Origin: Pontiellaceae bacterium B12219
GTDB taxonomy: Bacteria; Verrucomicrobiota; Kiritimatiellia; Kiritimatiellales; Pontiellaceae
DNA length: 36,380 nucleotides
Reading direction: 5' to 3'
NCBI GenBank assembly: GCA_029432795.1
Contig: JARNMJ010000045.1
Coordinates: 1-36,380 of the forward strand
Shown: positions 2,863 to 34,394 of the stretch, piece after piece
How positions within the stretch are numbered: position 1 is the first letter of the stretch
How the letters are laid out: each line of letters starts with the position of its first letter
The notes under the pieces: model-generated
What the model was told of the DNA's origin: nothing
The model's input: the letters and a program-made list of their open reading frames with translations, nothing else
Database searches by the model: none
Translations under genes and position numbers: made by a program

Positions 2863-2895
2863 TACTTGTACACACCTCGCGTCAGCACTGGGACA
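2863..2895 (-). promoter_or_regulatory. 33-bp cluster motif, copy H
   Basis: Minus strand: TGTCCCAG, 13 bases, TGTGTA, 2 bases, AGTA. It has the same spacing as the seven other copies but carries G instead of A at position 8. It lies 168 bp upstream of the GTG start of the LamG-PKD gene. The rest of the 2695-3178 intergenic region holds the bidirectional terminator near 3126-3161 and nothing else I recognise. Confidence 0.65.
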
Positions 2896-3125
2896 GCACG
2901 TCTGTTTTTTTTAATTAAACGTCCGCATCTCGATACCGTCCCCGTATTTCAGGCATATTTCCACTCCACCAGCATCTGCCCCCGTTGGGAGAAAAAGTTT
3001 TGACCGACATGATTTTGCTTAATCATCTCGAAAGAAAGGTGCGGCGGCGGTTGCACCCCCGAATCGACCGCCATCTTTGGATCCCGTTTTTTCCAGAATG
3101 TCTATCTTCTTGAAAACGAGAGCTG

Positions 3126-3161
3126 AAAAAAACTCTCCGATCGCACGGAGAGTTATTTTTT
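3126..3161. terminator. Bidirectional intrinsic terminator
   Basis: AACTCTCCG (3131-3139), a 6-base loop, and CGGAGAGTT (3146-3154) form a perfect 9-bp stem. On the minus strand the hairpin runs straight into a T tract, ending the PEP-CTERM gene that stops at 3179. On the plus strand it is followed by ATTTTTTCT, so it may work both ways. Confidence 0.9.
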
Positions 3162-3178
3162 CTATCTCAATAGATGGA

Positions 3179-3886
3179 TTAAATCATCAACCGGCGGCGG
3201 ATAAAGAGTATGCCCCCACCAAAAGCAGCAACCAAACCGATGGTTGCAGGTTCAGGAATCGCCCGAATCTGAATCGCATTGATATTGGCATTTCCGCTCC
3301 CGAGATAATCAGCAAAAAAAGAAGCTTCACCCGTTGCATCCGCCGTAAAGGTACCAATGACATACGTGCCACCCGCACCACCAGCAGCGACGCTGCCATT
3401 ACCGAGGGAAGTAAACTCGCCGGCCGTACCACCGTCCAAAACAAGAACATTGTTTCTGCCGGATCTCGTATCCGAAGAGAAAACCTGAACCTGATATTCC
3501 TGTCCATCGGTCAAATTACCCAGCGTAATGGTACCGCCGGCCGCCTTAAGCCATTGGGCAGAACCCAGCAACGAGCCGAAATCACCTGATAGATTACTAA
3601 AACCAGCATCTGCCCCGTTATCGATCGGATCAATCATCACATTTCCGTCATTGTTCAGATCGGCAATACCACCGCCTCCGGTACCATCGAACGCAACTGT
3701 GTTAACAGTAAAACTGTCGGTTGCTCCAAGGTTATAGGCATATTCCAACGCCCCGAGTGTACTGACATCAGTATCACCCGTCAGACCCGCAGTAGATTCC
3801 CAGTCCACAATAACAGCGGCCTGAGAAACCCCCGCCATCAACACGGCCATTCCGGTCACTCCTATGATCTTCTTTATTTTTTTCAT
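3179..3886 (-). CDS. PEP-CTERM sorted surface protein
   Basis: About 235 residues. An N-terminal signal peptide (KKIKKIIG then a hydrophobic core ending SQA) and a C-terminal sorting signal, IPEPATIGL then a hydrophobic helix and RRRLMI, mark it as an exosortase (EpsH/XrtA-type) substrate. The body is Gly/Asp/Asn-rich and beta-type (DFGSLLGSAQWLKAAGG, then TITLGNLTDGQEYQVQV), like many PVC PEP-CTERM proteins of unknown function. AAGGG lies 6 bases before the ATG at 3886, which favours it over the ATG at 3889. The gene is monocistronic: the 33-bp motif lies 54 bp upstream and an intrinsic terminator 25 bp downstream. No exosortase gene is present here. It could be an adhesive or matrix protein made together with the degradative enzymes; that is inference. 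Confidence 0.85.
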   Translation of the reverse strand: MKKIKKIIGVTGMAVLMAGVSQAAVIVDWESTAGLTGDTDVSTLGALEYAYNLGATDSFTVNTVAFDGTGGGGIADLNNDGNVMIDPIDNGADAGFSNLSGDFGSLLGSAQWLKAAGGTITLGNLTDGQEYQVQVFSSDTRSGRNNVLVLDGGTAGEFTSLGNGSVAAGGAGGTYVIGTFTADATGEASFFADYLGSGNANINAIQIRAIPEPATIGLVAAFGGGILFIRRRLMI

Positions 3887-3940
3887 CATATTCCCTTATT
3901 TTTCACTCGAATGGACCATCCAAACAAGTATGCCTTTACA

Positions 3941-3973
3941 TACTCGTACACAGAGAAACTGCATATTGGGACA
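3941..3973 (-). promoter_or_regulatory. 33-bp cluster motif, copy G
   Basis: Minus strand: TGTCCCAA, 13 bases, TGTGTA, 2 bases, AGTA. It lies 54 bp upstream of the PEP-CTERM start and is one of the best matches to the consensus of the eight copies. Confidence 0.75.
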
Positions 3974-4200
3974 TGACATTTTATTTTTTGTAAAAAAAGA
4001 GAAAGCGGTCGATAAAAAATGTAATCCGTTGCGCCTACATCAATTAGCTCTGATTTCATAGATGAAACGAATTAATAAAAAAGGAGATAATATCGACGAT
4101 ATCCGCGAACAGTTTTTTCTGACAAGCAATCTACCTTCTCCGAGCGAGATCAAACTCTGCCAGAGCACCTGATCAGCATACTCTTTCCTTGCATTTTTGA

Positions 4201-4439: not shown

Positions 4440-4480
4440 ATCCTATATTCATTCGTACTTTTGCAGTTTGTTTTTCCCTC

Positions 4481-7093
4481 TTAATTCTTGATCTTGGGAA
4501 ATACCTGCACTTCTGCCAAACACAAACCATTCGTGCCCGAATTTAACTGAACCTTCACATACCGTCCCTTTGCCCCCCCCGCATTGAGCGTTGTCGGGAA
4601 CTTAGCCTGTTTGGTCTGATGGCTGGACCAGACTTCATTCAGACGGTCATCTAACACGTAAACAGTATAGTCACTGAGCCTGCCTTTAGCACTGTCATCC
4701 GATCTGTTCCAGATGTTGATATCCCCGATCTCATAGCTCTCTTCAAGATCGACCTGCCACCATGCATTTTCTTCATTCCCCGTATGCGTCACAGATCCGT
4801 CGAAAAAAGCTCCTGCGGTATTCCCGTCAACGGCTTTACTTGCTGATGCTCTATGAGACGTCGAAGACTGTGTGGCCGGTTTTCCTTTAGCAACATTTGA
4901 ATTGATCAGCTTTTTAGGTATCGGAATGCTGGTTGCCAGCACTTCAACCTCAGCAAGGCTTAGCGCATCTGTGCCAGTCAACTGAACTTTAACGATTCTG
5001 CCGACTTTGCCCCCCACATACACGGAGGTCGGACGTTCCGCAGGCGAGGTCTGATGGCGAGACCAGACTTCCGCCTGCTTCTCATCCAATATGGAAATCG
5101 TATAATCACTTAATTTTTCAGCGCCAGCAGCACCTGTCTGGTTCCAGATTTTGATTTCATCAACCAGAAAGTCTGTTCCCAGATCCACCTGCCACCATGC
5201 GTTCGACTCGCTACGCGTACACGTTACAGAAGCATCTTCCCGCTCACTGCTTGTGTTACCGTCAACGGCTCTTCCGGGCTCCGCATTAAAGTCCGTACTG
5301 GACTGCGTTGCCGTTGCATTCAAAGCCACATTGAAAGGAACGGGAGAAACCCCCTCCTCCGTTTGAACCACCTTTTTAATGGTTCCATCTTCATTATAGT
5401 ATAAGTAATCCACACATACGGAACGTCTGTGGTTACGGCCACTCAGTGCTGCACTATGATAGAATATATACCAGCGTCCTTTGAACTTGACGATCGAATG
5501 GTGATTGGTAACACACCCCGGAACGGCATCCATCAGGATACCCTGATAGGTAAACGGCCCCATCGGAGAAGTACTCGTGCAATAGGCGATCGGGGCATGG
5601 GTGCCGGTGGCGTAGGATAAATAATAGATTCCATTTCTTTTATGCATCCACGGCCCCTCATAAAACTTGGGCAAGGTCACGTACTTTACGCCACTGTGAC
5701 TCTTCATATCATCATTCAGTTTTACAATACGCAATGCATCCCGATGCCCGCCCCAGTATAGATATGCCTGTCCGTCATCATCAATAAAACAGGCCGGATC
5801 GATCTCATCTGTACCCTCAATATACGATCCCGAGTCTGTAAACGGACCGGAGGGAGAGCTGCTGGTTGCAACACCGATTCTGTTTTTATTATTCTTATCT
5901 CTCGCCGGATAGTAGTAATAGTAGGTCCCGTCTTTATACGCACAATCCGGTGCCCACAAATTCCCGCGACGGGCCCAACTGATATCGTCGGTATGCATAA
6001 TCTGACCGTGGTCGGTCCAGTTGACCAAATCCGGTGAAGAAAATACATGATGCCCATTCATCGAACCATAGCTCGTTGCATCATCCTGATCATGCGATGG
6101 ATAAATCCACATTTTGCCATCAGCCCAAACATGGGCCGAAGGATCTGCGGTATACATGTGGGTGATAATTGGGTTTCCACCCTTTTCCATGTCTATACCG
6201 CGCGTTTGCTGAACCATATTGATCGTTCCGTCGTCATTAAACGTGACTTCATCGAAACAAATGGAACGGTTGGTTGCTTTTCCGCCGGAAAGATCCGCAC
6301 TGTGATAAAACAGGTACCACGTTCCTTTATACTCCACAATAGAACCATGCGTGGTATACGAACTCGTTTTCTCGAGAAAAACGCCTTTGCAATCCCAGGG
6401 TCCCATCGGATTTGAACTCATGGCATACCGCATCTGATGACCGTCTTTTGCATTATCCGGATACATCAGGTAATAAATTCCTTCCCGTTTGAAAACAAAC
6501 GGTCCCTCGCGGTGGTCATCGAGCTCCTGCAAAACCCACTCGCCGTCAATCTCCATCATGTTCTTTTTGAGTTTGACCGCATAGCATTTTTTATTAACCA
6601 CAGCATACAAATAGGCCTGTCCGTCATCATCGATGAACACACAAGGGTCGCAATAGGTCGTAGCGCCTTTCACAGTTCCCTTCACCTTGAAATCAGAAGC
6701 GGGCTTTGTGCTGGTTGCAATGCCGATTTCCCACTCGCCATCATCATTGGTATGGGGAAAATAAAAATAGTAGATTCCATCTTTATACACACAGTCCGGT
6801 GCCCACATAGACCCCGAAACCCCACTCCAGTCGACATCCCGCGAATGCAGAATTTCCCCATGGTCTTTCCAGTTGAGCATGTCGTCGGTGGAAAAGACAT
6901 GATACCCATCCATGGACCGATAGCCTTTTCCTTTGATATCCGTCGACGGATAAACATACAGGCGGCCATCCTCCCATACATGGGCAGACGGATCGGCGGT
7001 GAACATATGTTTAATGAACGGATTCGTGGCTCGCTCTGCAGCGTGCAGATTTCCAACTAAACAAATAATACATACAACAAATAGTTTTCTCAT
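4481..7093 (-). CDS. Tandem GH43-like glycosidase with two F5/8-type (fucolectin-like) domains
   Basis: 870 residues. Signal peptide of about 19 residues (GNLHAA), then two five-bladed beta-propellers of GH43 type: about residues 22-300 and 305-590. Each has the expected triad: base Asp in TADPSAHVW (Asp34, and again near 314), the pKa-modulating Asp in DPCVFIDDDGQAYLY or DPACFIDDDGQAYLY, and acid Glu in REGPFVFKR or YEGPWMHKR. GH43 enzymes are arabinosidases, xylosidases or galactosidases; the specificity is not readable. Two discoidin-type domains follow (about 590-725 and 729-870), each with AVDGNT, NAWWQVDLG/E, IxIWN and LSDYT, resembling fucolectin/CBM32-47 modules. AAAGG precedes the ATG. 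The first propeller and signal peptide are near-copies of those in the adjacent gene (9896-7596). The 33-bp motif lies 164 bp upstream. Confidence 0.85.
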   Translation of the reverse strand: MRKLFVVCIICLVGNLHAAERATNPFIKHMFTADPSAHVWEDGRLYVYPSTDIKGKGYRSMDGYHVFSTDDMLNWKDHGEILHSRDVDWSGVSGSMWAPDCVYKDGIYYFYFPHTNDDGEWEIGIATSTKPASDFKVKGTVKGATTYCDPCVFIDDDGQAYLYAVVNKKCYAVKLKKNMMEIDGEWVLQELDDHREGPFVFKREGIYYLMYPDNAKDGHQMRYAMSSNPMGPWDCKGVFLEKTSSYTTHGSIVEYKGTWYLFYHSADLSGGKATNRSICFDEVTFNDDGTINMVQQTRGIDMEKGGNPIITHMYTADPSAHVWADGKMWIYPSHDQDDATSYGSMNGHHVFSSPDLVNWTDHGQIMHTDDISWARRGNLWAPDCAYKDGTYYYYYPARDKNNKNRIGVATSSSPSGPFTDSGSYIEGTDEIDPACFIDDDGQAYLYWGGHRDALRIVKLNDDMKSHSGVKYVTLPKFYEGPWMHKRNGIYYLSYATGTHAPIAYCTSTSPMGPFTYQGILMDAVPGCVTNHHSIVKFKGRWYIFYHSAALSGRNHRRSVCVDYLYYNEDGTIKKVVQTEEGVSPVPFNVALNATATQSSTDFNAEPGRAVDGNTSSEREDASVTCTRSESNAWWQVDLGTDFLVDEIKIWNQTGAAGAEKLSDYTISILDEKQAEVWSRHQTSPAERPTSVYVGGKVGRIVKVQLTGTDALSLAEVEVLATSIPIPKKLINSNVAKGKPATQSSTSHRASASKAVDGNTAGAFFDGSVTHTGNEENAWWQVDLEESYEIGDINIWNRSDDSAKGRLSDYTVYVLDDRLNEVWSSHQTKQAKFPTTLNAGGAKGRYVKVQLNSGTNGLCLAEVQVFPKIKN

Positions 7094-7257
7094 TTTACAA
7101 CCTTTAACTTATATCCTCAGCATTCATTAACATCTAAAAACAAACAATTTACTTCAAAGCGATTTATAAAAACTCTCCTTACATAAACAACTCACGAAAG
7201 ACCGCGCTTACATACCGTTCAAAACCCGGAAACCAAACACCAGATCACGAATTCAGA

Positions 7258-7290
7258 TATTCATGAGCAGGTAAACCGGGAATTAGGACA
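7258..7290 (-). promoter_or_regulatory. 33-bp cluster motif, copy F
   Basis: Minus strand: TGTCCTAA, 13 bases, TGCTCA, 2 bases, AATA. It carries T at position 6 like copy E, the other GH43 upstream region. It ends 164 bp before the tandem GH43 start. Confidence 0.65.
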
Positions 7291-7364
7291 CCATTAAGCA
7301 GAGAACCAAACCGATCATACCTCACTCGCCCGATTTCAACTTCATCATCGAGTTGATCAAAACT

Positions 7365-7382
7365 GGACAAAGACATTTGTCC
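7365..7382. repeat. Short inverted repeat GGACAAA-N4-TTTGTCC
   Basis: A perfect 7-bp stem with a 4-base loop lies between the two GH43 genes. It has no T tract on the minus strand and shares GGACA with the cluster motif. It could be an operator half-site pair or a weak hairpin; the function is unknown. Confidence 0.4.
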
Positions 7383-7595
7383 TTATGTTTTTCCCCGCGA
7401 GCACTACCGCCCTCTTATCTTCCCCAAGAACCTCACAAACTACGAGGTATTAAGAAAATACGATCTTTAGCAACGCCCACTCGCAATGCCCTAAACCATT
7501 TCCAAGTTACCCATTGCCTTTGACCGCCCCCGGGAACTCCTTGCAACAGCACTCTCTGCCGCCATCCAAATTAACCTATGCCCAAAATCCTGATC

Positions 7596-9896
7596 TCATT
7601 GAACCAAGATCACACGATAGAAGCTCGCATTATTGGTCATTGGAGATGAGACCACCATTGGAGACGTTGCCAGAGCGGCAAGATCCGTCACGACCTGCCA
7701 GGAATTAGATGAAATCAGGTCGTCACTCGATTCAACCCGATAATGCTGCCCAACAGTCCCCGAAAAGCTCACCATCAAATTGCCGTTGGATACCGTCAAC
7801 CCCGGCTCAAATACCGGAATATGCGGACCGCCAGATACCGTCGGGACGCCGAAAATATCGATTTCACGCCCCACCACAACTCCGCCGGCATTGGCATCTT
7901 CCGTAATGTAAAACACAATCGATTTGACGCCGGAAGCCATTACACCTCCGGAATCCTTGCGAAAAGAAACCGTCGTCCAATACGATGCAGGCGAATTCGG
8001 CGCCCAATGCTCCGGCCCGGCCAAAACCGCTCTTGAACCGTCAACAAAGATTACGATGATCTTATAGCCCTGATTCGCACGGCCACCGGAACCGGTCGTC
8101 CATCCAAAGTAGGAGTCAATGCCCGTTAGATCGTAGCCCAATGTATTGACGGAGGTATCGAACGTCACTGTGATCGTATTACCACTACCCATCGTCACTT
8201 CGCCTGAATCAGATGAATCGCCGACATCATTTCCAGCTGTTCCGTTGAACAGTTGCGCATGTTCATTAGCCACTTCATTTCCACCCGTGGCGGAACTGCT
8301 GAGATATTGAGTCTGCGCCAAATCGTTGGTACTGACACTGGGTGCCGAACTGGACCCGGAAGCCTCGTATACGATCCCCGGAAGAACAGGAAGCGATTCG
8401 GTACCCGTCGGAACTCCAAAAATATCAATTTCGCGGCCGATCACTACCCCTCCGGCATTCGCATCCTCCGTAAAATTAAACGTGACCGACTTAACTCCCG
8501 AGGCCATTACACCCCCGGAAACCTCTCTGAACGAAACCGTCGTCCAATACAACGCAGGCGAATTCGGAGCCCAATGATTCGGCTCGACCAATTTGGCACT
8601 GGAGCCGTCCACATAGGTCACAATAATCTCATACCCCTGATTCGAGCGTCCCCCGTTACCGGTCGACCATCCAAAGTAGGAATCAATTCCGGTGAGATCG
8701 TACCCATCAGCATTAACTGATGTATCCAGAGTCACCGTAAGCGTATTTCCGCTATCCAGCGTCACTTCACCGGGGTCGGATGAATCGCCGACAGTATCCC
8801 CGGGCGTGCCATTGAAGAGTTGTGCATGCTCCCCGCTATTGCCCAATTCATTTCTTCCCGTGGCGGAACTGCTGAGATATTGAGTCTGCGCCAAATCGTT
8901 GGTGCTAACGCTTGGAACCTCTGTTTCTTCGGATCCGGAGGCCGTATAAACAATATTAGAAAGAACGGGCAGGTCTGGCGGCTGATAGAGTTCGTCCTGC
9001 GTTTGCTCAACCAGATTGATCGTGCCGTCCTCATTAAAAGTGACGACATCGAAACAAATGGAACGATTCGTTTCCAACCCTCCGGAAAGGTCTGCGTTGT
9101 GATAAAACAGATACCATGTCCCTTTATACTCCACAATCGAACCATGCGAGGTATAGGAACTCGTCTTTTCCAAAATAACCCCTTTGCTTTCCCATGGACC
9201 CAGCGGACTGTCGCTCATGGCATACCGCATCTGATGACCACTGGTCGTACTATCCGGATAGATGCAGTAATAAATCCCTTCCCGTTTGAAAACAAAAGGA
9301 CCTTCACGGTGCGCGTAAAGCTCTTCCTGCCGAACCATCTCACCGTCAATCTCCACCATATTCTCTTTAAGCCTGGCCGCATGGCATTGTTTGTCTACCA
9401 CGGCATATAAATAGGCCTGTCCGTCATCATCGATGAACACACAAGGATCCGCATAGGTCGTACCGCCATTCACAAATCCCTGCACCGTGAAATCAGAAGC
9501 GGGATTCGTGCTGGTGGCGATACCAATTTCCCACACCCCATCATTATTGGTATGAGGAAAATAATAGTAGTAGATCCCATCTTTATACGCACAGTCCGGT
9601 GCCCACATGGACCCCGACACATCGCTCCAGTAGACATCCCGTGAATGCAGAATTTCTCCATGATCGGTCCAGTTGAGCATATCGTCAGTGGAAAAGACAT
9701 GATACCCATCCATGGACCGATAGTTTGTTGATCCTTCAATATCCGTTGAAGGATAGACATACAGGCGGCCATCATCCCATACATGAGCGGACGGATCGGC
9801 GGTGAACATGTGTTTAATAAATGGATTCGTGGCTCGTTCTGCTGCATGCAGATTTCCAATGAAACAAATGACACATATAATAAACAGAACTCTCAT
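7596..9896 (-). CDS. GH43-like glycosidase with duplicated C-terminal beta-domain
   Basis: 766 residues. Signal peptide (about 19 residues, ending HAA), then one GH43-type five-bladed propeller to about residue 300 with base Asp34 in TADPSAHVW, DPCVFIDDDGQAYLY, and acid Glu in HREGPFVFK. After it come two copies of a roughly 190-residue unit (about 307-498 and 499-688), each with SVSTNDLAQTQYLSSSATG, GYDLTGIDSYFGW, HWAPNSP and GGVVxGREIDIFGVPT. This unit matches no family I can name and may be a carbohydrate-binding beta-sandwich. The last 75 residues form a module with YRVESSDDL and a terminal SFYRVILVQ. AAAGGAAA precedes the ATG. The propeller is a close paralogue of the first propeller of the downstream gene, so the pair arose by duplication followed by different tails. 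The 33-bp motif lies 143 bp upstream. Likely an exo-acting side-chain enzyme. Confidence 0.85.
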   Translation of the reverse strand: MRVLFIICVICFIGNLHAAERATNPFIKHMFTADPSAHVWDDGRLYVYPSTDIEGSTNYRSMDGYHVFSTDDMLNWTDHGEILHSRDVYWSDVSGSMWAPDCAYKDGIYYYYFPHTNNDGVWEIGIATSTNPASDFTVQGFVNGGTTYADPCVFIDDDGQAYLYAVVDKQCHAARLKENMVEIDGEMVRQEELYAHREGPFVFKREGIYYCIYPDSTTSGHQMRYAMSDSPLGPWESKGVILEKTSSYTSHGSIVEYKGTWYLFYHNADLSGGLETNRSICFDVVTFNEDGTINLVEQTQDELYQPPDLPVLSNIVYTASGSEETEVPSVSTNDLAQTQYLSSSATGRNELGNSGEHAQLFNGTPGDTVGDSSDPGEVTLDSGNTLTVTLDTSVNADGYDLTGIDSYFGWSTGNGGRSNQGYEIIVTYVDGSSAKLVEPNHWAPNSPALYWTTVSFREVSGGVMASGVKSVTFNFTEDANAGGVVIGREIDIFGVPTGTESLPVLPGIVYEASGSSSAPSVSTNDLAQTQYLSSSATGGNEVANEHAQLFNGTAGNDVGDSSDSGEVTMGSGNTITVTFDTSVNTLGYDLTGIDSYFGWTTGSGGRANQGYKIIVIFVDGSRAVLAGPEHWAPNSPASYWTTVSFRKDSGGVMASGVKSIVFYITEDANAGGVVVGREIDIFGVPTVSGGPHIPVFEPGLTVSNGNLMVSFSGTVGQHYRVESSDDLISSNSWQVVTDLAALATSPMVVSSPMTNNASFYRVILVQ
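7841..8975 (-). repeat. Tandem duplication inside the GH43 gene
   Basis: Two copies of about 560 bp (about 7841-8390 and 8408-8975) are offset by 567 bp. The best conserved stretch, near 8282-8328 and 8864-8911, is almost identical at the DNA level for over 40 bases. The duplication adds one whole protein unit and keeps the frame. Confidence 0.8.
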
Positions 9897-10397
9897 TTCA
9901 TTTCCTTTAGCTTCCGTAGCTTGAAATTATTTTTTCACCATTATAAACCGGTTGATCCTAAAAACTGCCGGCTTCAGGAACATCGTATTGTCATGACCGC
10001 TCAAAACCCAGCAGCCAGACTCCGGACGGTCTCTTCGAATACCTATACACAGGCAAACAGAGAGTTAGGACACCCAGGAAATAAAAAGGAATAAACCTCC
10101 CTCTTCAGCATAAAATTCCAGCCTCAGATACTCGCCAGAAAAAGGTAAGCATATCGGAACCGAAGCTTTACCAAACCAACCACATTTAAAACACATCTCG
10201 CCCAAATCATCGACGCGAATGGAGACAGGAAACTTTACGCGTAAACCACGCTAAAATTTACCTTTTAGAAATTCCCCCGATCAGAGTATCACACAGAAGC
10301 TGAGATTAACGCCGTCTTCGATCATGCGGGTCGGCCCCCAGAGAAAACAGAGCTCCATAATTTTTACGATCCGTATCCGATTTTCCTTATCCGAATC
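9897..10397. other. Intergenic region upstream of the single-propeller GH43 gene
   Basis: 501 bases without a gene. It holds the 33-bp motif at 10040-10072. No intrinsic terminator was found after the lyase gene that stops at 10398. Nothing else is recognised. Confidence 0.6.
10040..10072 (-). promoter_or_regulatory. 33-bp cluster motif, copy E
   Basis: Minus strand: TGTCCTAA, 13 bases, TGTGTA, 2 bases, GGTA. It ends 143 bp upstream of the GH43 gene at 9896 and carries the T-variant first box also found in copy F. Confidence 0.7.
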
Positions 10398-12873: not shown

Positions 12874-12906
12874 TAACAGTACACATCCCGGCTGCCGATT
12901 GGGACA
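12874..12906 (-). promoter_or_regulatory. 33-bp cluster motif, copy D
   Basis: Minus strand: TGTCCCAA, 13 bases, TGTGTA, 2 bases, GTTA. It sits between the terminator of the previous gene and the lyase start, where a promoter is expected. Confidence 0.7.
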
Positions 12907-12965
12907 CCTGTTGCAGTCCAACTCATGTTCAGATTCGCTTCATTCAACACCCTGCCATCGACGTG

Positions 12966-15411: not shown

Positions 15412-15444
15412 TATTCATAAACAGCGCACCGTAAAATTGGGACA
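15412..15444 (-). promoter_or_regulatory. 33-bp cluster motif, copy C
   Basis: Minus strand: TGTCCCAA, 13 bases, TGTTTA, 2 bases, AATA. It ends 49 bp upstream of the GH-A/CBM96 start, the shortest leader of the eight. It also separates the cluster gene from the kinase gene that stops at 15555. Confidence 0.75.
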
Positions 15445-18181: not shown

Positions 18182-18202
18182 AAGTACGTTAAAAAAGAAG
18201 AG

Positions 18203-18231
18203 ATTATAGTTCAAAGCTGTAAATACATCAA
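18203..18231 (-). promoter_or_regulatory. Sigma-70-type promoter for the sigma/kinase operon
   Basis: On the minus strand TTGATG (18231-18226), a 17-bp spacer and a perfect TATAAT (18208-18203) lie 22 bp upstream of the ATG. It differs from the 33-bp element before the CAZyme genes, so the regulator appears to be made independently of its presumed regulon. Confidence 0.75.
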
Positions 18232-18483
18232 TCACACAAATCTAACCAGTATTGTCTATCATTTCCAGCCCGCACCTGCACCGATTGCTGCAGTATCGCA
18301 AGAAGGCATCACTGAAAGTTCCCCAAAAGGGGACGTCCATCAAACGGGCCATCCTCAGCGATATACTGCATATGTTCAATTCCCTTTCCCGATTGGATAT
18401 AAAAGTCGTCAACATCGGTGTATTCTGAACGACGGCCACGCAGCTTTTCATCAGGCCAAGCCAACAGAAGGCCTCATTCGCAA

Positions 18484-25178: not shown

Positions 25179-25192
25179 CTATTGCGTAGCGA

Positions 25193-28039
25193 TCAGCGGT
25201 TCGATGGAGTCACAGCGATCGACTCAATCCGTGCGATATCACCGGCGATTAATTTTATTTCGATGGGGGTCTGCGCTGAAATAGTCTGGTTCAGAGTAAA
25301 CACCCCATTCTTCATCCTGCTGAGAGACACATCCGTCTCCATATCTTCAGCACCTTCACGTATCGTAAGTTTGAAAACATCCGACTCGTCCATCTCCGCA
25401 ACTTTCAGCTCGATGGAGGTAATATTGCTGTCAAAGGTAAACCCCCATGCCTCACCGACATCTATATTATTGTGATCTCCCTTACCGCTGGCAGATCGAA
25501 TACCCACCGCGTTGAACCCGGCGTGGATATTGACCTTACCGCCCTTGGTGACGCCATCGACATCCACGATTTCGATGGTCGTCATCGTGATGCCATCAAC
25601 GGTCATTGGGGCACCTGCCGGCACGTTGTCAAAGGGGGTTTTATTATTAAAGTCAAAAAGAACCTGCTCCCCCTCTGCGGCGCTAGTTTCTTCAAATCCT
25701 TTAAAGTGTGGCTGTGTGAGTGACGAACCCACCCCACGCAAGTCGATAGGCTTAATACCTAACTGCTCGGCTGGCGACCCCGCTTGAAAGCGGTAGATGC
25801 CCTCCAGAGCGGCTTCTTTATCAAACATTGGATCCGTGTAGATGAGCTTTATGTCATCCTGCCCCGGCGTGACCGGTTTCCCGGTGAACAAGTCGGTGCC
25901 CAGCGCGCTCTTAGGAACGTAAGGTGTGCTCGTATTCTCCGTGTAATAGATCGAATTTTCCATTTTTGGAAGATTCTCATAGAAGGGCCGGTCGGTTGCA
26001 CGCTTGTCCGTCAAATAAAGCCCATTGCTCGACTTCGAAGAGGCCGGCGGCATGAAGATATTACCCACGGGATCGACTTGCTTGGTCCCACCGAGCCAGC
26101 CCGGCAAGGGACGTCCGCGCAGGAACGTCTCGGTGAAAACAAAGTTATTGGAGAGATCGGCCGGCCCCTTGAGCCCGAATCCCTGCTCCGATTCTCTGAC
26201 CACATTATTTCTAATGATGGTGAAGCTCGGATTATCGTCTAATCGCACCGTACCTGCCGTACCATAATTCTGATGAAGGTAGTTATTCTCCACCACATTA
26301 TTTTCACCCATGGCCGAGAAATAAATTGCGTTACCATCGTGCAGTTTCAGGAGCACATGGGAGATATCATTCATCGCAATAAGATTCTCCCGGGCGTGCA
26401 GGAGCGGCAAAAAGTGCGAAAGCTGAACCGGAGACTCAGACGCCAGCCCCTTTTTGATGTAAGGTTCACATTCTTCAAAACGAATCGTAGAGACCCACGC
26501 ACGGCGGAACGGGATGCGCTTTACCAGATAAAACTCATCCGGACGACAGCCGCTCACCGCAATGCCGTTGTATGGAAGATCATGAATGGTATTGTGCGTA
26601 ATTTTGTTGTTTCCACTTTGCGCCACAAAGATGGCCGGCGAATGCCAGAGAATCTCACCGACATGGTGAATGTAGTTATCGTGAACCACATTGTTTTTAT
26701 TCTCATCTTTCGTTCCGGGGCCATAACCGCTGAGCACAATACCGCCACCACCCAGGTATTTCAGGTGATTGCTCACGATTTCAATTTGCTGACAATGCAG
26801 GTCAAGGCGGATGCCCGTGCCACTGCTTGATTTAAGGGTGGACCGCTTGACAGAGCACTCTTCTGCATGACGGAAACGAATCACTGCGTTGCCCTTATCA
26901 TACATTTCCCAATCGTGCTGCAAGCCCTTATCGCCCTCCAGCATGGTATCCCGCTGCCCATGCATAAAGGTGAGGCCTTCGAAATGAATATGCTTCACGA
27001 AAGGTCCATCCTCTTCGCCTTCGACACGAATAAATTCCTGTAAGAAGGGAGCAATCACATTCATCGTTGCAATATCGGCCTTCGGCCACATATAGATGCG
27101 CCCTTCCGGAGTATTCACCACCCACTCGCCAGGTTCATCCAGGTAATCAATCGCATTTTCAACCCAGTAGCGAAGATGCGATCTATTGGGTTGATAGGTC
27201 GGATCAGCCGCCAGGCGGGCAATGCCCTTATCCATATCAATGCTCTCAATAGGAATAAAATTGGCCAGCCAGGGACGGTCTTTGAGTTTTACCTCAACAT
27301 CATAGAGATTGGGCCAGTCGCGCAGATCCCCTTCCCGGAAATACACATCCCGATCAAAGGGCTCCACCGGCTCCCCTTCATACTCCAGCATGTTGACAAT
27401 CTTTTTCCCCTGACGGTTGTAGTCATATCGCTTCTCAATATCCTGATAGTGGAATGAACCTGATATTGCGCGATGCAGCAGCTCTTCGCCATCATAGAGC
27501 GATCGTATATACCAATCATCGCTGACGCCCTGCGGAATGTCAGCCACCCACAGATTGCCCTTGGCCGCTTCAGTTACGCCCTCGGGATAGGTCGTAAGCT
27601 TCTTCCAGCCGCTCACCGGAATTCCACCTGTAAATACGGGCTCTTCCCCGGGATAAGCTTTATAAACAACCGGTGCATCTTTACTGCCGGAATCTTCCGG
27701 GCCGAAGACGACGGTCTCTCTGAGAGAATAGAGCCCCCCCCGGAACTGCACCTCAAACGATTCGTCAGGATTTGCGGCTTTCAACTTCCGGATCTTCAGG
27801 CGGGCGGCATCCAAGGTAGCAAAAGGCCCCTCATTCTGTTGGGGTTCCGCCATCCGTCCCGACCACTGGTCATTTCCTTCGGGCGACACATAAAGCGTCG
27901 TTTTTCCGGCCCAGGCCGCACCTTGCAAAAGTACCAACGAAACGAGAAGAGGTCCCATGCTTTGACGCCTTCCCAGCGAATCTTTCATCGTCATAACAGA
28001 CGTCCTTCGTGCTGAAGTTTTTCTATGTTGTTTATTCAT
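25193..28039 (-). CDS. GH141-like right-handed beta-helix protein, copy 2
   Basis: 948 residues from the ATG at 28039, the same length as its paralogue at 34282-31436; an AAGGAT-type site lies upstream, and the longer start at 28093 is not supported. A basic N-terminus and hydrophobic core (about 29-44) form a signal peptide. TTLYVSPEGNDQWSG, RGGLYSLRETVVFGPEDSG and PVFTGGIPVSGWKK match the opening of GH141-type proteins, whose characterised members include an alpha-L-fucosidase. The parallel beta-helix spans about 350-650 (NNVVHDNYIHHVGE, NNKITHNTIHDLPYNGIAVSG, NNVVENNYLHQNYG). The last 150 residues are a beta-domain (FDFNNKTPFDNVPAG, then GEAWGFTFDSNITSIEL) also seen in the other beta-helix proteins here. 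It follows the 31188-28123 gene by 83 bp without its own motif, so it is cotranscribed. The glycosidase assignment is moderate. Confidence 0.78.
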   Translation of the reverse strand: MNKQHRKTSARRTSVMTMKDSLGRRQSMGPLLVSLVLLQGAAWAGKTTLYVSPEGNDQWSGRMAEPQQNEGPFATLDAARLKIRKLKAANPDESFEVQFRGGLYSLRETVVFGPEDSGSKDAPVVYKAYPGEEPVFTGGIPVSGWKKLTTYPEGVTEAAKGNLWVADIPQGVSDDWYIRSLYDGEELLHRAISGSFHYQDIEKRYDYNRQGKKIVNMLEYEGEPVEPFDRDVYFREGDLRDWPNLYDVEVKLKDRPWLANFIPIESIDMDKGIARLAADPTYQPNRSHLRYWVENAIDYLDEPGEWVVNTPEGRIYMWPKADIATMNVIAPFLQEFIRVEGEEDGPFVKHIHFEGLTFMHGQRDTMLEGDKGLQHDWEMYDKGNAVIRFRHAEECSVKRSTLKSSSGTGIRLDLHCQQIEIVSNHLKYLGGGGIVLSGYGPGTKDENKNNVVHDNYIHHVGEILWHSPAIFVAQSGNNKITHNTIHDLPYNGIAVSGCRPDEFYLVKRIPFRRAWVSTIRFEECEPYIKKGLASESPVQLSHFLPLLHARENLIAMNDISHVLLKLHDGNAIYFSAMGENNVVENNYLHQNYGTAGTVRLDDNPSFTIIRNNVVRESEQGFGLKGPADLSNNFVFTETFLRGRPLPGWLGGTKQVDPVGNIFMPPASSKSSNGLYLTDKRATDRPFYENLPKMENSIYYTENTSTPYVPKSALGTDLFTGKPVTPGQDDIKLIYTDPMFDKEAALEGIYRFQAGSPAEQLGIKPIDLRGVGSSLTQPHFKGFEETSAAEGEQVLFDFNNKTPFDNVPAGAPMTVDGITMTTIEIVDVDGVTKGGKVNIHAGFNAVGIRSASGKGDHNNIDVGEAWGFTFDSNITSIELKVAEMDESDVFKLTIREGAEDMETDVSLSRMKNGVFTLNQTISAQTPIEIKLIAGDIARIESIAVTPSNR

Positions 28040-28122
28040 CCCTTCAATATCCTTTCTTATTAATTCACCCATAAAATTCCGAACTGCGATCATGATCGAT
28101 GAGCTCAGATTCTATTAAATCT

Positions 28123-31100
28123 CTATTCAGCAATAATGCGATAGAATCCCGCTGATTCGTCCGGTATTTTAACCGTAATGCTGTTCGTTTGCGTCAATGC
28201 AGGAATCCCTGATTCAACCGTCGCCGAGAACGCATCTGTCACCAGATTGGTTGAGCATTGCACGGCATAGGTAGTCCCCGGTGCATTCGGCCACTCGAAT
28301 GAAATCGAATCGGCTTCGAACTTCGCCATTGAAGCCGACTGATCCGATATTCCATAGAGTTCAAATTCCTCGACCGTCGGGTTGGATGTCGCCGACATAA
28401 TTTGCAATCGGAACCTGGATCCGGATACCTCAGAAAACCACTCAATCTGATTATCATAAGGATTTTCGCCCTCAAAAACAGGTTCCCAACTTTCGTTGTC
28501 ATACACCTGAATTTCATACGAGCGAATGCGATCCCTGGTTTCAACGATTCGAATGCCATTGATCGAAACAGTCGCGCCGAAATCCACCTCGATCCATGGG
28601 GTTAATTCGGTAGCCGCCCAGCGAGTAACAAGATCTCCATCGAACGCTTTACTGGCCGCGTAGGAGGAACTATGCACACTACTCGCGCTGGCCGTTTGAT
28701 TCAGTGCGATATTGATTGGATCCATCGGAGTTGAGAACTCAAAATATCCATATGAAGCCGTTAGTTCAAACCAGTTCAAAAGTTGCAATTCTTCACCGGT
28801 TGCAGAAACCGTGAGGGTACTGGCTCCCGCCTGAAGCGAGATCATCTTATACACGCTGGTCCAGGTTGCCCCCCCGTCAATCACCCGATTAAGCGTGGTG
28901 AGCGGCGTACCATTCTGCGCCAGTTCCAGATTCACCAACCCGGAATCGGAGGCCACACGGAATTCCACTAAGTACGTCCCTGCAACCAGCACATTCACCT
29001 CGTAGGAGATTTCATCGCCTGTTGCATCAAAGACCACCATCTTCCCGCCACCGTCATCCGAGCTGGACAGCGCAACCACACCGATTGCATCGTCGTAAGA
29101 CTCCGCCTGCACCATCGTTGTTGCTCCCGAAAATAAAGGAACTTCAGAAACGGTTATGTTCTGCACTCCAACCCCGGTATCCACGCCATTCGTCGGCGTG
29201 GTCATCATCAAGGTGAGTTCAGTTCCGGCCGGAACGAAACGGTATCCCAGTTCGTGAACATCACTCGGTTGCCCATCCGCCAGAATAATATCGTCGAACA
29301 ATTCTGACGACAGAGTCATTTCCGCATCATTATTCTGGCTCCCGAGCTGAATCGTTTCTAAATAGACATCCTTATCAAACGCAAAGACCCAGCCTTCGTT
29401 CGGGTTAAAATTACGAAACTCTTGGTTGTAACCGCCGGGATTGCCGCTATCATCAACGGCCAGATAGGCGGTCGATCCAAACACATTCAATTTATGCCCT
29501 TCCCCCTCTGAAGCGCGGGTACCGTCCTGACCAATCACATCGATCGCCGTAAGTGTTATGCTATTCCCCGTCACTGTATTCGTTAACGTAGCGTTTGCAC
29601 CAATCGCACCACCACCGGCACCTTTATCCCAAACGGAACCCTCAAGGAAATCGAACGTTACCTGAGTAACAGGGCCCATATACTCAAAGGCACCGATATC
29701 GGCTGCACCGTCATAGATCGGATTCCCTGCAATATCCGACTGTACCGTCCCCGAAATCAAAATCGCCGCATCAAACGCCGGAGATCCGGCTAGCAATTGA
29801 TAACCGCGCAATGCCCCCATCGTCGTCAGGTTAATATCCGTTCCGGCCACTCCGGGCGACGTAAACAGCGGATCTCCAATAATTGGATTCGAATCCGACG
29901 AATGCGGAGTAATATTGTAGTAGAGATTGTTGTTAAACGTAGCGCCACTCAAATTACCCGTTCCGTATGAGGAATCATCCGCATCCTCAAAGTAGAAGAT
30001 ATTGTTTTCAAGCAGGGTATCATGCGGCTTTCGCCCCTGCACAAACACAGCGGCACTGTTCCCGGCACTCACATAATGCGTATTGTTGTAGATGTGGACG
30101 TCTTCAACATCCGTATTGCTGTCAAAGCCATAGAAATAGAAGCCCTGCTTCTCGTCCTGCGTCACATTGTAGCGAATGACTACATTGCGTTGCACTTTTT
30201 TCATAATAGCACAGAAATATTCATTATCATGGCTGTAGTTATATTGAATGGTTGTATCAACGCAGTTGTAATCCGCATCAAACCCGGCGCGGTCAGAATT
30301 GCTGCTGTCCGTGGAGCCTGCAACCGTGTTTCCATAGGCTTCATTGTACTGCATAATACAACCCACCGTATCGAAACAGAAAATAGCAGTCCCATGACTA
30401 TAACGACCGCAGTTCGCCGCCACGTTGTACTCCACCATCGGATCTTGACTGTGGCGAACAATGATGCTGTTTCGGCCGGTGCGATTCACATAGTTTCCAC
30501 CGATATAAACACCGGTCCACAGGTTTACCGCCGTATATCCAATGTCCTCCACAACGACATCCGCACAACTGGACTTATTGGCAATCCCTACCCCGCCGAC
30601 ATCTTCGATTCGATTATTGGTGATGCGCAGATCATCGATAATGGAACTGTTCAAACCCTCCATATAGACATGAATCCCTCCGCGATCTTTACCCTCCACT
30701 GCTGCATTCACATCATGAATATAATTATCATCAATATAAATGTGCTCATAGACCATGTTATCGGGACCACTCACGACAACAAGAATTCCAAATAAATAGC
30801 TGTCTGTATCCTCCGTTTTATTGATGATTTCTAACCCCGATACTTCCCAAAAGGCAATATCTCCTTCCAGGCGCACCCCCGCCTCATTCAATCCCTGGGC
30901 ATCAATCAGAGGCCGATCTCCCGTTCCAAACGCACCAATGCGAATCGGAGCGGCTTCCGTCCCTTTTCCAGTCGGCGCCAGCATGCCGACAAACTGTTGT
31001 CCGCGTTCGAGCAAAATGGCATCGCCGGGCTGCAATACGGCATTTTTGACCGCGTCAAATTCGGACTGTGTACTTACGGTATATTCGGTTGAAAAACAGA

Positions 31101-31188
31101 CCGCAGGCACTAAAGCCAGCAACAAAGCCAATGGCCTGAAGCGTGACCCACCCGTCATTCCGTTCGCGAAAATTTTATTTTTAACCAT
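28123..31188 (-). CDS. Secreted beta-helix protein with CBM6 and F5/8-type domains
   Basis: 1021 residues, first gene of the probable long operon. The signal peptide ends near residue 33 (ALVPAVCFS). Residues of about 35-495 form a right-handed parallel beta-helix (QPGDAILLERGQ, IYIDDNYIHDV, DLRITNNRIEDVGG, NVVIRYNVTQ, HIYNNTHYV), the fold of pectate-lyase-like lyases and several GH families; no catalytic motif is certain. A beta-domain at about 505-690 (VTFDFLEGSVWD, then NPNEGWVFAFDKDVYLETIQL) resembles the C-terminal domain of the two GH141-like proteins. CBM6 follows at about 689-830 (VQAESYDDAIG, LLNWFEL), F5/8 type C at about 823-950 (NIALNQTASASS, KAFDGD, WIEVDFG), and the C-terminal FYRIIAE module at 953-1021. 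AAAGGA precedes the ATG. The 33-bp motif lies 64 bp upstream. Likely a lyase or exo-hydrolase on a soluble glycan. Confidence 0.8.
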   Translation of the reverse strand: MVKNKIFANGMTGGSRFRPLALLLALVPAVCFSTEYTVSTQSEFDAVKNAVLQPGDAILLERGQQFVGMLAPTGKGTEAAPIRIGAFGTGDRPLIDAQGLNEAGVRLEGDIAFWEVSGLEIINKTEDTDSYLFGILVVVSGPDNMVYEHIYIDDNYIHDVNAAVEGKDRGGIHVYMEGLNSSIIDDLRITNNRIEDVGGVGIANKSSCADVVVEDIGYTAVNLWTGVYIGGNYVNRTGRNSIIVRHSQDPMVEYNVAANCGRYSHGTAIFCFDTVGCIMQYNEAYGNTVAGSTDSSNSDRAGFDADYNCVDTTIQYNYSHDNEYFCAIMKKVQRNVVIRYNVTQDEKQGFYFYGFDSNTDVEDVHIYNNTHYVSAGNSAAVFVQGRKPHDTLLENNIFYFEDADDSSYGTGNLSGATFNNNLYYNITPHSSDSNPIIGDPLFTSPGVAGTDINLTTMGALRGYQLLAGSPAFDAAILISGTVQSDIAGNPIYDGAADIGAFEYMGPVTQVTFDFLEGSVWDKGAGGGAIGANATLTNTVTGNSITLTAIDVIGQDGTRASEGEGHKLNVFGSTAYLAVDDSGNPGGYNQEFRNFNPNEGWVFAFDKDVYLETIQLGSQNNDAEMTLSSELFDDIILADGQPSDVHELGYRFVPAGTELTLMMTTPTNGVDTGVGVQNITVSEVPLFSGATTMVQAESYDDAIGVVALSSSDDGGGKMVVFDATGDEISYEVNVLVAGTYLVEFRVASDSGLVNLELAQNGTPLTTLNRVIDGGATWTSVYKMISLQAGASTLTVSATGEELQLLNWFELTASYGYFEFSTPMDPINIALNQTASASSVHSSSYAASKAFDGDLVTRWAATELTPWIEVDFGATVSINGIRIVETRDRIRSYEIQVYDNESWEPVFEGENPYDNQIEWFSEVSGSRFRLQIMSATSNPTVEEFELYGISDQSASMAKFEADSISFEWPNAPGTTYAVQCSTNLVTDAFSATVESGIPALTQTNSITVKIPDESAGFYRIIAE

Positions 31189-31252
31189 TTTACAAATCCT
31201 TTTTCCTTTGTGCGAATAAGATGCGCTCGACCGATGAAGATCGAGCTACAAG

Positions 31253-31285
31253 TACTTAAGAACCCCTCCGCAACAAATTGGGACA
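31253..31285 (-). promoter_or_regulatory. 33-bp cluster motif, copy B
   Basis: Minus strand: TGTCCCAA, 13 bases, GGTTCT (weak middle box), 2 bases, AGTA. It lies 64 bp upstream of the first gene of the operon that seems to run from 31188 to 18569. Confidence 0.7.
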
Positions 31286-31339
31286 GGAGACGGGGCTAAA
31301 ACATTCATTGCTCAACAGCCCTTTTCCTTTGAGATGCTC

Positions 31340-31417
31340 TTTTCCAACCCTTGGAAAAAGAAATTCCGGCTATTCCAACATCTGAGAATAACCGGAAAAA
31401 TTTCCAAGGACTGGAAA
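31340..31417 (-). terminator. Cluster of three inverted repeats after a GH141-like gene
   Basis: Three palindromes lie between the stop at 31436 and promoter copy B: TTTTCCAA-N3-TTGGAAAA (31340-31358); TTCCGG-C-TATTC with GAATA-A-CCGGAA (31364-31397, 10-base loop); and TTTCCA-N5-TGGAAA (31401-31417). On the minus strand the middle hairpin runs into TTTCTTTTTCC, which makes it a plausible intrinsic terminator. The outer TTCCA(A) palindromes may be a small dispersed repeat. Confidence 0.65.
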
Positions 31418-31435
31418 TACCTTAAGCAGAATAAG

Positions 31436-34282
31436 TTAACGGTTCGATATCGTCACAGCTATCGATTCTACCCGTGCGATGTCGCCTGCGGTTAATTTAA
31501 TTTCGACCGGCGTCTGAGCAGCAATCGTCCGGTTCAGGGTATATACCCCGCCCTTCACCTTGCTGCTTGATATATCGGTTTCGATATCTTCCGCACCTTC
31601 TCGGATTGCGAGTTTGAATACATCAGACTCGTCCATCCCCGCAAAAGTCAGCTCAATAGAGCTGATATTCCGGTCAAAGGTAAATTCCCAGGCCTCACCG
31701 ACATCAATACTGTTATGATCTCCCTTCCCGCTGGCGGAACGAATGCCGATCGCATTCACCCCTGCATGAATATTGACCTTGCTTCCTTTGGAGACCCCAT
31801 CGATATCTACGATTCCTGTGGTCGCCATGGTGATGCCCTCAACGGTCATGGAACTGCCTACCGGCACGTTGTCAAAGGGTGTATTGTTATTAAAATCAAA
31901 TACAACCCGTTCACCCTCTGCTGCGACAGCTTCGTCAAACCCGTTAAAACTTGGCTCTGTGAGCGATGACCCCACCTCGCGCAAGTCAATCGGCTGAATG
32001 CCTAACTGTTCAGCCGGCGAACCTTCTTTGAAACAATAGTTGCCTTCCCGCGCGGCTTCTTTGTCGAACATAGGGTCAATATACACCAGCTTTACGGCAT
32101 CCTGCCCCAATGTAACCTGATCTCCGGTGAACAAATCACTGCCCAGCTCTGTCTTCGGGACGTAGGGCGTGCTTGTGTTCTCCGTAAAATAGATCGAATT
32201 TTCCATTTTGGGCAGATTCAGAAAGAAGGGTCTTTCCGTTGCGCGGCTATCCGTCAAATAGAGTCCGTTACTCGATTTCGAAGAAGCCGGCGGCATAAAT
32301 ATATTCCCGACCGGATACGCCTGTTTAGTGCCACCGAGCCACCCCGGCAAAGATCGGCCGCGCAGAAAGGTCTCGGTGAAAATAAAGTTATTGAAGACAT
32401 CAGCAGGTCCCTTGAGACCGAGTCCCTGGTCCGATTCCTGGATCACATTGTTTTTGATGATCGTGAAGCTGGGATTGTCGTCCAATCGAATTGCACCTGC
32501 CGTGCCATAGTTTTGATGCAGATAGTTGCTTTCAACCACATTATTTTCCCCCATGGCCGAGAAATAAATCGCGTTACCGTCGTGCAGTTTCAGCAGTACA
32601 CGCGAGATATCATTCATCGCAATTTTATTTTCACGGGCGTGGAGAAGCGGCAGAAAATGCTCGAGACGATTCTGATACTTAGACGCCAGTCCTTTTTTGA
32701 TGTAGGGCTCACACTCTTCAAAACGAATGGAAGAGACCCAGGCACGCCGGAACGGAATCCGTTTCACGAGATAAAACTCGTGCGGACGGCAGCCACTCAC
32801 CGCGATACCGTTATAGGGAAGATCATGAATTGTATTGTGGGTGATTTCGTTATTTCCACTTTGCGCGATGAAGATGGCCGGAGCATGCCACAGAAGCTCA
32901 CCGACGTGGTGGATGTAGTTGTCGTGAATCACATTATATTTATTGACATCTTTTGTTCCGGGACCATAGCCACTGAGCACGATACCGCCTCCGCCCAGAT
33001 ATTTCAGGAGATTTCCGGAAACCTCAATCCGCTGACAATGCAGATCCAGGCGAATACCCGTGCCACTGCTTGATTTAATCGTGGATCCATGGATAGAGCA
33101 GTCTTCCGCAAAGCGGAAACGGATCACCGCATTGCCTTTGTCATACATTTCCCAGTCGTGCTGCAGGCCCTTGTCGCTCTCAAGAAGCGTATCCCGCAGC
33201 CCATGGGTGAACGTCAGGCCTTCAAAATGGAGGTGCGATACAAAAGGGCCGTCTTCCGTGCCTTCAACCCGGATGAATTCCTGAAGATAGGGAGCAACGA
33301 TATTCATTGTACTGATTTCGTTTTCCGGCCAGATATAAAGACGGCCTTCGGCGCTGTTGAAGACCCATTCGCCCGGCTCATCCAGATAATCGATTGCGTT
33401 CTCAACCCAGAAGCGATTGTTCGGATTGATTGCCTGATACGTCGGATCAACCTCCAGATAGGCAATTTTCTTTTTGGTATCAACACGCTCCAGGGGGATG
33501 ATATTGATCATCCAGGGACGATCCTTAAGCAGGAGCTCGATATCGGAAAGGTTGCTCCAATCCTTTATGTCATTATCCCTGTAATAAATCGTGCGATCGA
33601 ACGGAGCAACGGGCTTACCTTCGTATTCCAACACGCTTGTTAACTTTTTGCCCTGTCGATTAGAGTCCTCTTCCTTTTCGACCTCGGCATATTTAAAGCC
33701 ATCTGACCTTGAGCGCTGCAGCATGGTTTCGCCGTCGTAAAGCGACTTAATATTCCACTGCATTTTTTTCGCACCGGGAATTTCCGCTACCCACAACTGT
33801 CCCTTTGCTTCCGGAGCAACACCCGCCGGATCCTTGATGCACTTTTTCCAGTTACTGACTTCGATACCCCCCGTAAACACCGGGGTTTCTCCTGGAAAGG
33901 CTTTATAAACAATCGGAGCCTCTTTGCTGCCGGAATCTTCCGGGCCGAAAACCACGGTCTCTCTAAGCGAATAGAGTCCGCCACGAAGCTGCACCTCAAA
34001 AGATTCGCCAGGGTTTGCAGCTTTTAATTGGCGAACCTTCAGACGGGCGGCATCCAAAGAGGCCAGAGGGCCCTCATCCTGCTTGGGATCGGCCAATCGT
34101 CCCGACCACTGATCATTCCCCTCGGGCGACACATAAAGCGTCGTTTTTCCTGCCCAAACCGAACTTTGCAAAAGCACCATTGAAACGAGTGTGGTTCCAA
34201 TGATTCGACTTCTCGCTCCAGCACCTATCGCCGAGATAGAGGACGTCGTTAAACTGGTTCTTTTACCTTGCTGCCTATTCAT
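31436..34282 (-). CDS. GH141-like right-handed beta-helix protein, copy 1
   Basis: 948 residues, a full-length paralogue of the 28039-25193 product with the same domain order. Signal peptide after a basic N-terminus (MNRQQGKR; core IIGTTLVSMVLLQSSVWA). TTLYVSPEGNDQWSGRL, GGLYSLRETVVFGPEDSG and PVFTGGIEVSNWKK open the protein as in GH141 and related beta-helix glycosidases. Helix repeats follow (NVIHDNYIHHVGELLWHAPAIF; NNEITHNTIHDLPYNGIAVSG), and the C-terminal beta-domain has FDFNNNTPFDNVPVG and GEAWEFTFDRNISSIEL. Differences from the copy cluster in the segment around residues 95-250. AAAGGA stands 9 bases before the ATG. It is a single-gene unit with the 33-bp motif 79 bp upstream and hairpins downstream. 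Fucosidase or related exo-activity is possible but unproven; catalytic residues in GH141 are not ones I can assign here. Confidence 0.78.
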   Translation of the reverse strand: MNRQQGKRTSLTTSSISAIGAGARSRIIGTTLVSMVLLQSSVWAGKTTLYVSPEGNDQWSGRLADPKQDEGPLASLDAARLKVRQLKAANPGESFEVQLRGGLYSLRETVVFGPEDSGSKEAPIVYKAFPGETPVFTGGIEVSNWKKCIKDPAGVAPEAKGQLWVAEIPGAKKMQWNIKSLYDGETMLQRSRSDGFKYAEVEKEEDSNRQGKKLTSVLEYEGKPVAPFDRTIYYRDNDIKDWSNLSDIELLLKDRPWMINIIPLERVDTKKKIAYLEVDPTYQAINPNNRFWVENAIDYLDEPGEWVFNSAEGRLYIWPENEISTMNIVAPYLQEFIRVEGTEDGPFVSHLHFEGLTFTHGLRDTLLESDKGLQHDWEMYDKGNAVIRFRFAEDCSIHGSTIKSSSGTGIRLDLHCQRIEVSGNLLKYLGGGGIVLSGYGPGTKDVNKYNVIHDNYIHHVGELLWHAPAIFIAQSGNNEITHNTIHDLPYNGIAVSGCRPHEFYLVKRIPFRRAWVSSIRFEECEPYIKKGLASKYQNRLEHFLPLLHARENKIAMNDISRVLLKLHDGNAIYFSAMGENNVVESNYLHQNYGTAGAIRLDDNPSFTIIKNNVIQESDQGLGLKGPADVFNNFIFTETFLRGRSLPGWLGGTKQAYPVGNIFMPPASSKSSNGLYLTDSRATERPFFLNLPKMENSIYFTENTSTPYVPKTELGSDLFTGDQVTLGQDAVKLVYIDPMFDKEAAREGNYCFKEGSPAEQLGIQPIDLREVGSSLTEPSFNGFDEAVAAEGERVVFDFNNNTPFDNVPVGSSMTVEGITMATTGIVDIDGVSKGSKVNIHAGVNAIGIRSASGKGDHNSIDVGEAWEFTFDRNISSIELTFAGMDESDVFKLAIREGAEDIETDISSSKVKGGVYTLNRTIAAQTPVEIKLTAGDIARVESIAVTISNR

Positions 34283-34361
34283 ATACCTAAATCCTTTGTT
34301 AGAAAAATTCCGTTCGAAATGCCCGTTGAAAAATATAGCCCCGGCATCGCAATACGTTATT

Positions 34362-34394
34362 TACTTATTACCCTCCTAACAGAAAATTGGGACA
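34362..34394 (-). promoter_or_regulatory. 33-bp cluster motif, copy A
   Basis: Minus strand: TGTCCCAA, 13 bases, GGGTAA, 2 bases, AGTA. It ends 79 bp upstream of the GH141-like copy 1 start and begins 49 bp beyond the stop of the upstream pseudogene. Confidence 0.72.

Follow-up and report, generated by a model that had tools for sequence, protein, structure and literature searches.

A 36,380-nucleotide stretch of DNA (the window) that is dense in genes for secreted polysaccharide-degrading enzymes raises the question of how such a locus is switched on. The window spans an entire contig (JARNMJ010000045.1, labelled C213) of Pontiellaceae bacterium B12219, a Kiritimatiellae metagenome-assembled genome (MAG) available as a 4.75-Mb draft, of which the close relatives with names are Pontiellaceae bacteria B1224 and B12227, plus one Kiritimatiellae MAG. 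To break down marine polysaccharides, Pontiellaceae and related Verrucomicrobiota have sulfatases and glycoside hydrolases in very large numbers, and next to nothing has been described of their regulation; work on isolated Pontiella species refers at most to neighbouring two-component genes. Within the window a 33-bp element occurs eight times, and these copies are very probably promoters read by RNA polymerase with the extracytoplasmic function (ECF) sigma factor encoded nearby (17570-18235, minus strand), driving genes for secreted polysaccharide-degrading and surface proteins; the sigma factor would be switched on by its paired Ser/Thr protein kinase (15555-17573, minus strand).

The preliminary description of the window had listed the eight 33-mers as intergenic, on the coding strand and 49-208 bp before a start codon, and all of them are found so placed, on the minus strand, as are the genes that they precede (gene models are the longest open frames, uncurated). 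Element 1 (2863-2895, with its -35 box at 2887-2895, TGTCCCAGT, and its -10 region at 2863-2872, TGTACAAGTA) lies 156 bp before the gene of a LamG and PKD domain protein (955-2706), and element 2 (3941-3973) lies 51 bp before that of a PEP-CTERM protein of 236 aa (IPEPATIGLVAAFGGGILFIRRR, 3179-3889). Two GH43 genes follow, one of them also encoding an F5/8 type C domain (4481-7093; element 3 at 7258-7290, 164 bp before it) and the other without (7596-9896; element 4 at 10040-10072, 143 bp before it). Element 5 (12874-12906) is 208 bp before the gene of a secreted 755-aa protein with no Pfam match (10398-12665), and element 6 (15412-15444) is 49 bp before that of a CBM96-containing secreted protein of 751 aa (13107-15362). 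Element 7 (31253-31285) precedes by 64 bp a gene encoding beta-helix, CBM6 and F5/8 type C domains (28123-31188), which is the probable head of an operon extending down to 18569, and element 8 (34362-34394) precedes by 79 bp the gene of a GH141-like beta-helix protein with a GH141 insertion domain (31436-34282). Further genes of the locus encode a sulfatase and a SASA esterase, besides the ECF sigma factor and the transmembrane Ser/Thr kinase.

On both strands of the window, TGTCCYA[A/G] occurs at these eight sites and no others, and the pattern TGTCCYAR-N23-TA, with its eight matches, turns up 0.09 times on average, and never more than twice, when the window is simulated 300 times with an order-2 Markov model. 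Blind expectation-maximization (EM) motif discovery in 13 upstream regions of the window returned precisely the eight copies, which score 32-39 with their position weight matrix (PWM) and 18-30 in leave-one-out scoring. The best PWM score upstream of all other genes of the window is at most -1.9, which bears out the earlier statement that the element is absent before internal operon genes and before the sigma factor and kinase genes. The TGTGTA box said to be exact in four copies is so in those at 2895, 3973, 10072 and 12906; the spacing said to be fixed is constant among the eight copies of the window, but sites in other loci (L045:5433, L050:5032 and L051:5878) have one additional base pair.

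The element is tied to one clade of sigma factors. Paralogs of the window sigma factor number 8 in its own genome and up to 28 in one relative of the genus, and their loci were fetched by sigma factor, not by motif. At 22 stretches that hold or adjoin the closest sigma clade (the window itself included), TGTCCYAA has 30 occurrences in upstream sequence (28.0 kb), 2 in other non-coding sequence (35 kb) and 14 in coding sequence (780 kb), a 60-fold enrichment upstream versus coding (Fisher p = 1e-33); the equal frequency in coding sequence that the preliminary description had named as a ground for abandoning its proposal was not seen. The reversed word shows no comparable upstream enrichment, and the 26 stretches with other sigma paralogs, which comprise 36.2 kb of upstream sequence, have no TGTCCYAA there (p = 1.6e-11). 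When 32 sigma factors are placed in a tree, the loci with TGTCCYAA fall into one clade of 13 (support 100/96). At the loci of close paralogs the element precedes genes for secreted proteins (sulfatases, GH29, GH141-like and PEP-CTERM proteins), and TGTCCCAA is kept before secreted genes at four loci of the Verrucomicrobiae, a different class. Three held-out loci (L138, L139 and L140) contain 3 upstream matches in 2.7 kb versus 6 in 116 kb of coding sequence; L138 and L140 keep the element, and L139 gave no clear one. EM yielded no clean motif from single loci of some relatives (G016:C22 and G005:C1), from other loci of the own genome or from sigma clades B, D and E; the elements of G016 and G005 were seen by pattern or PWM only, their two or three copies being too few for EM. 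Besides its promoter-like position and spacing, the element has this tie to a single sigma clade, and the sigma factor that reads it is most likely the one encoded in the window; direct recognition by this factor, activation by the kinase, the signal, the substrate and the transcription starts are what we infer in addition.

The architecture of the element was derived from 36 sites gathered by the pattern TGTCCYA[A/G], so that the selection itself sets the first eight letters and independent information comes from the later letters only; the sites on contigs C3, C10, C188, C232 and C237 of the own genome were found by pattern and are a biased sample. The -35 box is TGTCCYAAT, and the -10 box starts at position 24, as TGTA or TTTA in the window (TGTA in four copies) and with the consensus G-N-T-C-A-T-A over the 36 sites. 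TA is conserved at positions 32-33, and the strongly conserved letters over all sites are TGTCCYAAT, G23, A27, T28 and T32. Runs of at least five A/T within 35 nt upstream of the -35 box are present at 25 of the 36 sites, whereas 20% of upstream stretches taken at random have one (p = 2e-10); an UP-like element would be expected to look like this.

Could the copies lack promoter function and be left over from a dispersed repeat or from genes duplicated recently? The window does contain tandem paralogs, a GH43 pair (77% identical) and a GH141-like pair (75%), but in paralogs and in orthologs across genomes the boxes are kept while flanks and spacers are mostly unrelated, and this explanation is scarcely credible; a dispersed repeat as such was rejected. 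Before orthologous genes of different genomes, 8-9 of the 9 bases of the -35 box are kept and the 40-nt flanks match at just 5-27 positions; the base count shares the caveat of pattern selection, of which the presence of the box at orthologous genes is free. The -35 box is kept at 9/9 bases before the orthologs of the genes that follow element 2 (ortholog L083:1676-2317) and element 7 (ortholog in L124), the element is kept with one extra spacer base before the ortholog of the gene that follows element 6 (L051:4651-5835), and it is kept before the 64.6% identical ortholog, in L050, of the gene that follows element 8.

Three features of an ECF-dependent promoter are present: two boxes about 16 bp apart with limited spacer variation (the position-24 register and its +1 variants), upstream placement on the coding strand with depletion in coding sequence, and a motif that follows the phylogeny of the sigma factors. 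The tested ECF41 promoter is TGTCACA-n16-CGTC (PMC3426412), a spacing that makes its -10 box start at position 24. The element resembles it in a -35 box that starts with TGTC, a -10 box from position 24, spacer variation of 1 bp and 5' untranslated regions of tens to about 200 bp, and differs from it in the remainder of the -35 box (CYAAT instead of ACA) and in the -10 box, so that neither TGTCACA nor CGTC is the consensus of the 36 sites. A second sigma clade (L104, L106, L113 and L114, support 100/99) has a different motif, TGTTWAGR-N15-CGTA, found de novo. Its sites in Pontiellaceae, with N15 or N16, are L104:3078, L104:6560, L104:10404 (before the sigma factor gene itself), L113:723, L113:1906, L113:12426, L113:16541, L114:12735, L114:13973 and L103:15078 (L103 has no listed sigma match); the -10 box starts at position 24 in 8/10 of them and at position 25 in 2/10. 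The sites of L141, a locus of another family, have their -10 box from position 24 in 6/6 cases. Another sigma clade has its own motif at the same register as the ECF41 promoter, and the promoter reading is well supported.

An operator for an activator or repressor, i.e. a site for another DNA-binding protein and not a core promoter, would accommodate the variable distances to the start codon (49-208 bp) and a -35 part that is far better conserved than the remainder. This is nevertheless improbable: no other regulator family is common to the loci, the element is neither palindromic nor a direct repeat (a palindromic operator was rejected on the same ground), it is nearly always oriented to the gene in these loci, its register is that of a tested ECF promoter, and the other sigma clade has another motif at the identical register. 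The earlier view that the element is an alternative sigma factor's promoter with two boxes, and not a dimeric repressor site, is strongly supported by sigma-clade specificity, the ECF promoter register, the +1 spacers, the upstream A-tracts and the conservation of the boxes alone in orthologs. Housekeeping sigma-70 promoters consist of TTGACA and TATAAT, 16-18 nt apart, and the consensus of the copies, by inspection, does not fit them. A literature search limited to open-licence papers, with the main ECF classification paper outside it, yielded no earlier account of the element.

The sigma factor gene (17570-18235; Pfam Sigma70_r2 PF04542 and Sigma70_r4_2 PF08281; TIGR02937) encodes the probable reader of the elements. 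Its product consists of regions 2 and 4 only, as ECF sigma factors do, and ends directly after region 4, lacking the long C-terminal regulatory extension of ECF41. The GTG start at 18235 is likely too early, since homologs start close to the ATG at about 18181, which is probably the true start. A sigma-70-like TTGATG-17-TATAAT lies at 18231-18203; such sites are no more numerous than expected by chance. An element precedes the sigma factor gene in close relatives, at L045:2615 (86 bp) and in degenerate form at L050:19093 (100 bp); autoregulation is absent in the window and possible in these two relatives. No relatives of the window sigma factor were found in viral contigs.

The kinase gene overlaps the sigma factor gene by 4 bp. 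From its sequence (Pfam Pkinase) and AlphaFold model, the product has an N-terminal kinase domain, a single transmembrane helix (about residues 347-366) and a C-terminal part of about 300 aa, which may lie outside the cytoplasm by analogy with other bacterial kinases; in a Foldseek search with the model, the 50 best matches listed were all kinases. A kinase of about 670 aa is encoded directly after the sigma factor in most paralog loci examined. Among families common to 20 loci with this sigma factor, the kinase is found in 20/20 and sulfatases come next; no other regulator family is present in six or more of the 20, and no SusC/SusD pair is among the common families. In one sigma clade (L111, L119, L121, L122 and L048), a related kinase gene adjoins the sigma factor gene on the opposite strand and is not in an operon with it.

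In the proposed mechanism, the transmembrane kinase, co-translated with the sigma factor, would use its C-terminal part to detect a signal at the cell surface, probably glycan fragments that have been released, and would then alter the activity of the sigma factor, turning it on. RNA polymerase carrying the activated sigma factor would read the eight copies, with TGTCCYAAT as the -35 box, the -10 box beginning at position 24 and TA 32-33 probably at or beside the transcription start, and would transcribe the genes of secreted polysaccharide-degrading enzymes and surface proteins. The substrate may be a sulfated, fucose-rich polysaccharide of the seaweed type, as suggested by the GH29 fucosidases, GH141-like proteins and sulfatases among the element-bearing genes of the clade.

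Locus-encoded control of local polysaccharide genes by an ECF sigma factor is also found in Bacteroidota, in which the sigma factor of the locus is paired with a membrane anti-sigma factor; the Pontiellaceae system has a kinase in place of the anti-sigma factor and no SusC/SusD among the shared families. PEP-CTERM genes are under an alternative sigma factor in Proteobacteria too, where their promoters are of the sigma-54 type; the window element does not belong to the -24/-12 GG..GC type. Pairing with a kinase also distinguishes the window sigma factor from ECF41, and resembles ECF43, in which an ECF sigma factor gene adjoins that of a transmembrane Hanks-type kinase (EcfP/PknT and EcfK/PknS; PMC13147305, PMC8999054). 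ECF43 sigma factors have no acidic DAED patch and work through a phospho-threonine (PMC13147305, PMC8999054), whereas the final [D/E]D pair of the patch is kept in nearly all of 32 aligned sigma factors and the window sigma factor has EVED, not uncharged residues with a phosphorylatable Thr; its targets, too, differ in being polysaccharide genes. With the patch retained, an ECF43-type phospho-switch is not expected and was rejected for this sigma factor, and phosphorylation must act otherwise, for instance via relief of inhibition or at another site. Groups ECF59, ECF61, ECF62 and ECF217 of planctomycetes are kinase-associated ECF sigma factors of PVC bacteria as well (PMC8999054).

Is there a single polysaccharide regulon, as first proposed? 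Speaking against it, the genome has about 15 more sites, spread over at least seven contigs besides that of the window, and three additional close sigma paralogs. A sharper pattern gave 17 matches in the own genome versus 0 when reversed, and copies upstream of genes lie on contigs C3, C10, C188, C232, C237, C238 and C250; over the whole genome, the loose TGTCCYAA-N23-TA does not exceed its reversed control (13 vs 25). Most relatives show the sharper pattern no more often than the control, other than in the vicinity of close sigma paralogs. Given the extra sites and the three paralogs, there may be several regulons, or overlapping ones. The reader could be one of the three close paralogs (on C238, C250 and C266), or all four jointly, which would make one genome-wide ECF regulon; this is a tentative alternative, favoured by the -35 box shared with at least seven other contigs and by paralogs that are 60-72% identical with near-identical region 4.2. 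Against it, TGTGTA at positions 22-27 is present in 4/8 window copies versus 0/28 other sites (p = 0.001) and the window sigma factor is on a long branch inside its clade, which together hint at partial specialisation.

Several points weigh against reading the copies as promoters of the window sigma factor and its kinase. The genome has four close sigma paralogs, any of which may read a given copy; the -10 box is less strict than the -35 box; few or no elements are near the clade members C266/L046, G001:C22/L053 and L139; and the acidic patch is kept, so that the kinase is not expected to act through the phospho-threonine switch of ECF43.

The window is one of many modules of sigma factor, kinase and polysaccharide genes in Pontiellaceae and other Verrucomicrobiota. 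There is perhaps an even chance that these form a modular promoter code of the Verrucomicrobiota, in which each of many polysaccharide loci has its own ECF sigma-kinase pair and co-evolved boxes in one fixed architecture (TGT..-N-CGTA-like, position 24), giving dozens of partly insulated regulons per cell. A promoter that can be read from sequence and is tied to a specific sigma-kinase pair makes it possible to assign enzymes to regulons, to predict the enzymes used together on one substrate and to test which signal each kinase senses. With the same signal, or a matched variant, at related blocks in other bacteria of the phylum, the control of these very large gene sets for sugar degradation would for the first time have a code that can be read, and the system adds a kinase-paired ECF family with the acidic patch kept, in which control must differ from the ECF43 switch.

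A small PEP-CTERM gene recurs in sigma-kinase loci (window:3179-3889, L050, L055, L059, L060, L083, L104, L106, L114, L127, L131 and L140), often under the promoter proper to the sigma clade, as if a core target. The tandem GH43 paralogs of the window (4481-9896) align over 322 aa, and of the GH141-like pair (25193-34282) one gene has its own element and the other is internal to an operon. Two elements at L123:14993 and L123:15082 are on opposite strands 90 bp apart and may be divergent promoters; an 827-aa open frame overlapping the pair is probably annotated too long. In L141, L147 and L149 (family f57, Verrucomicrobiota, a family with genomes that gave 62-84 first-look ECF candidates), TGTCY-N17/19-CGWA precedes sulfatase-like and prepilin-like (SLIELLVV) genes, with 14 upstream versus 1 coding occurrence.

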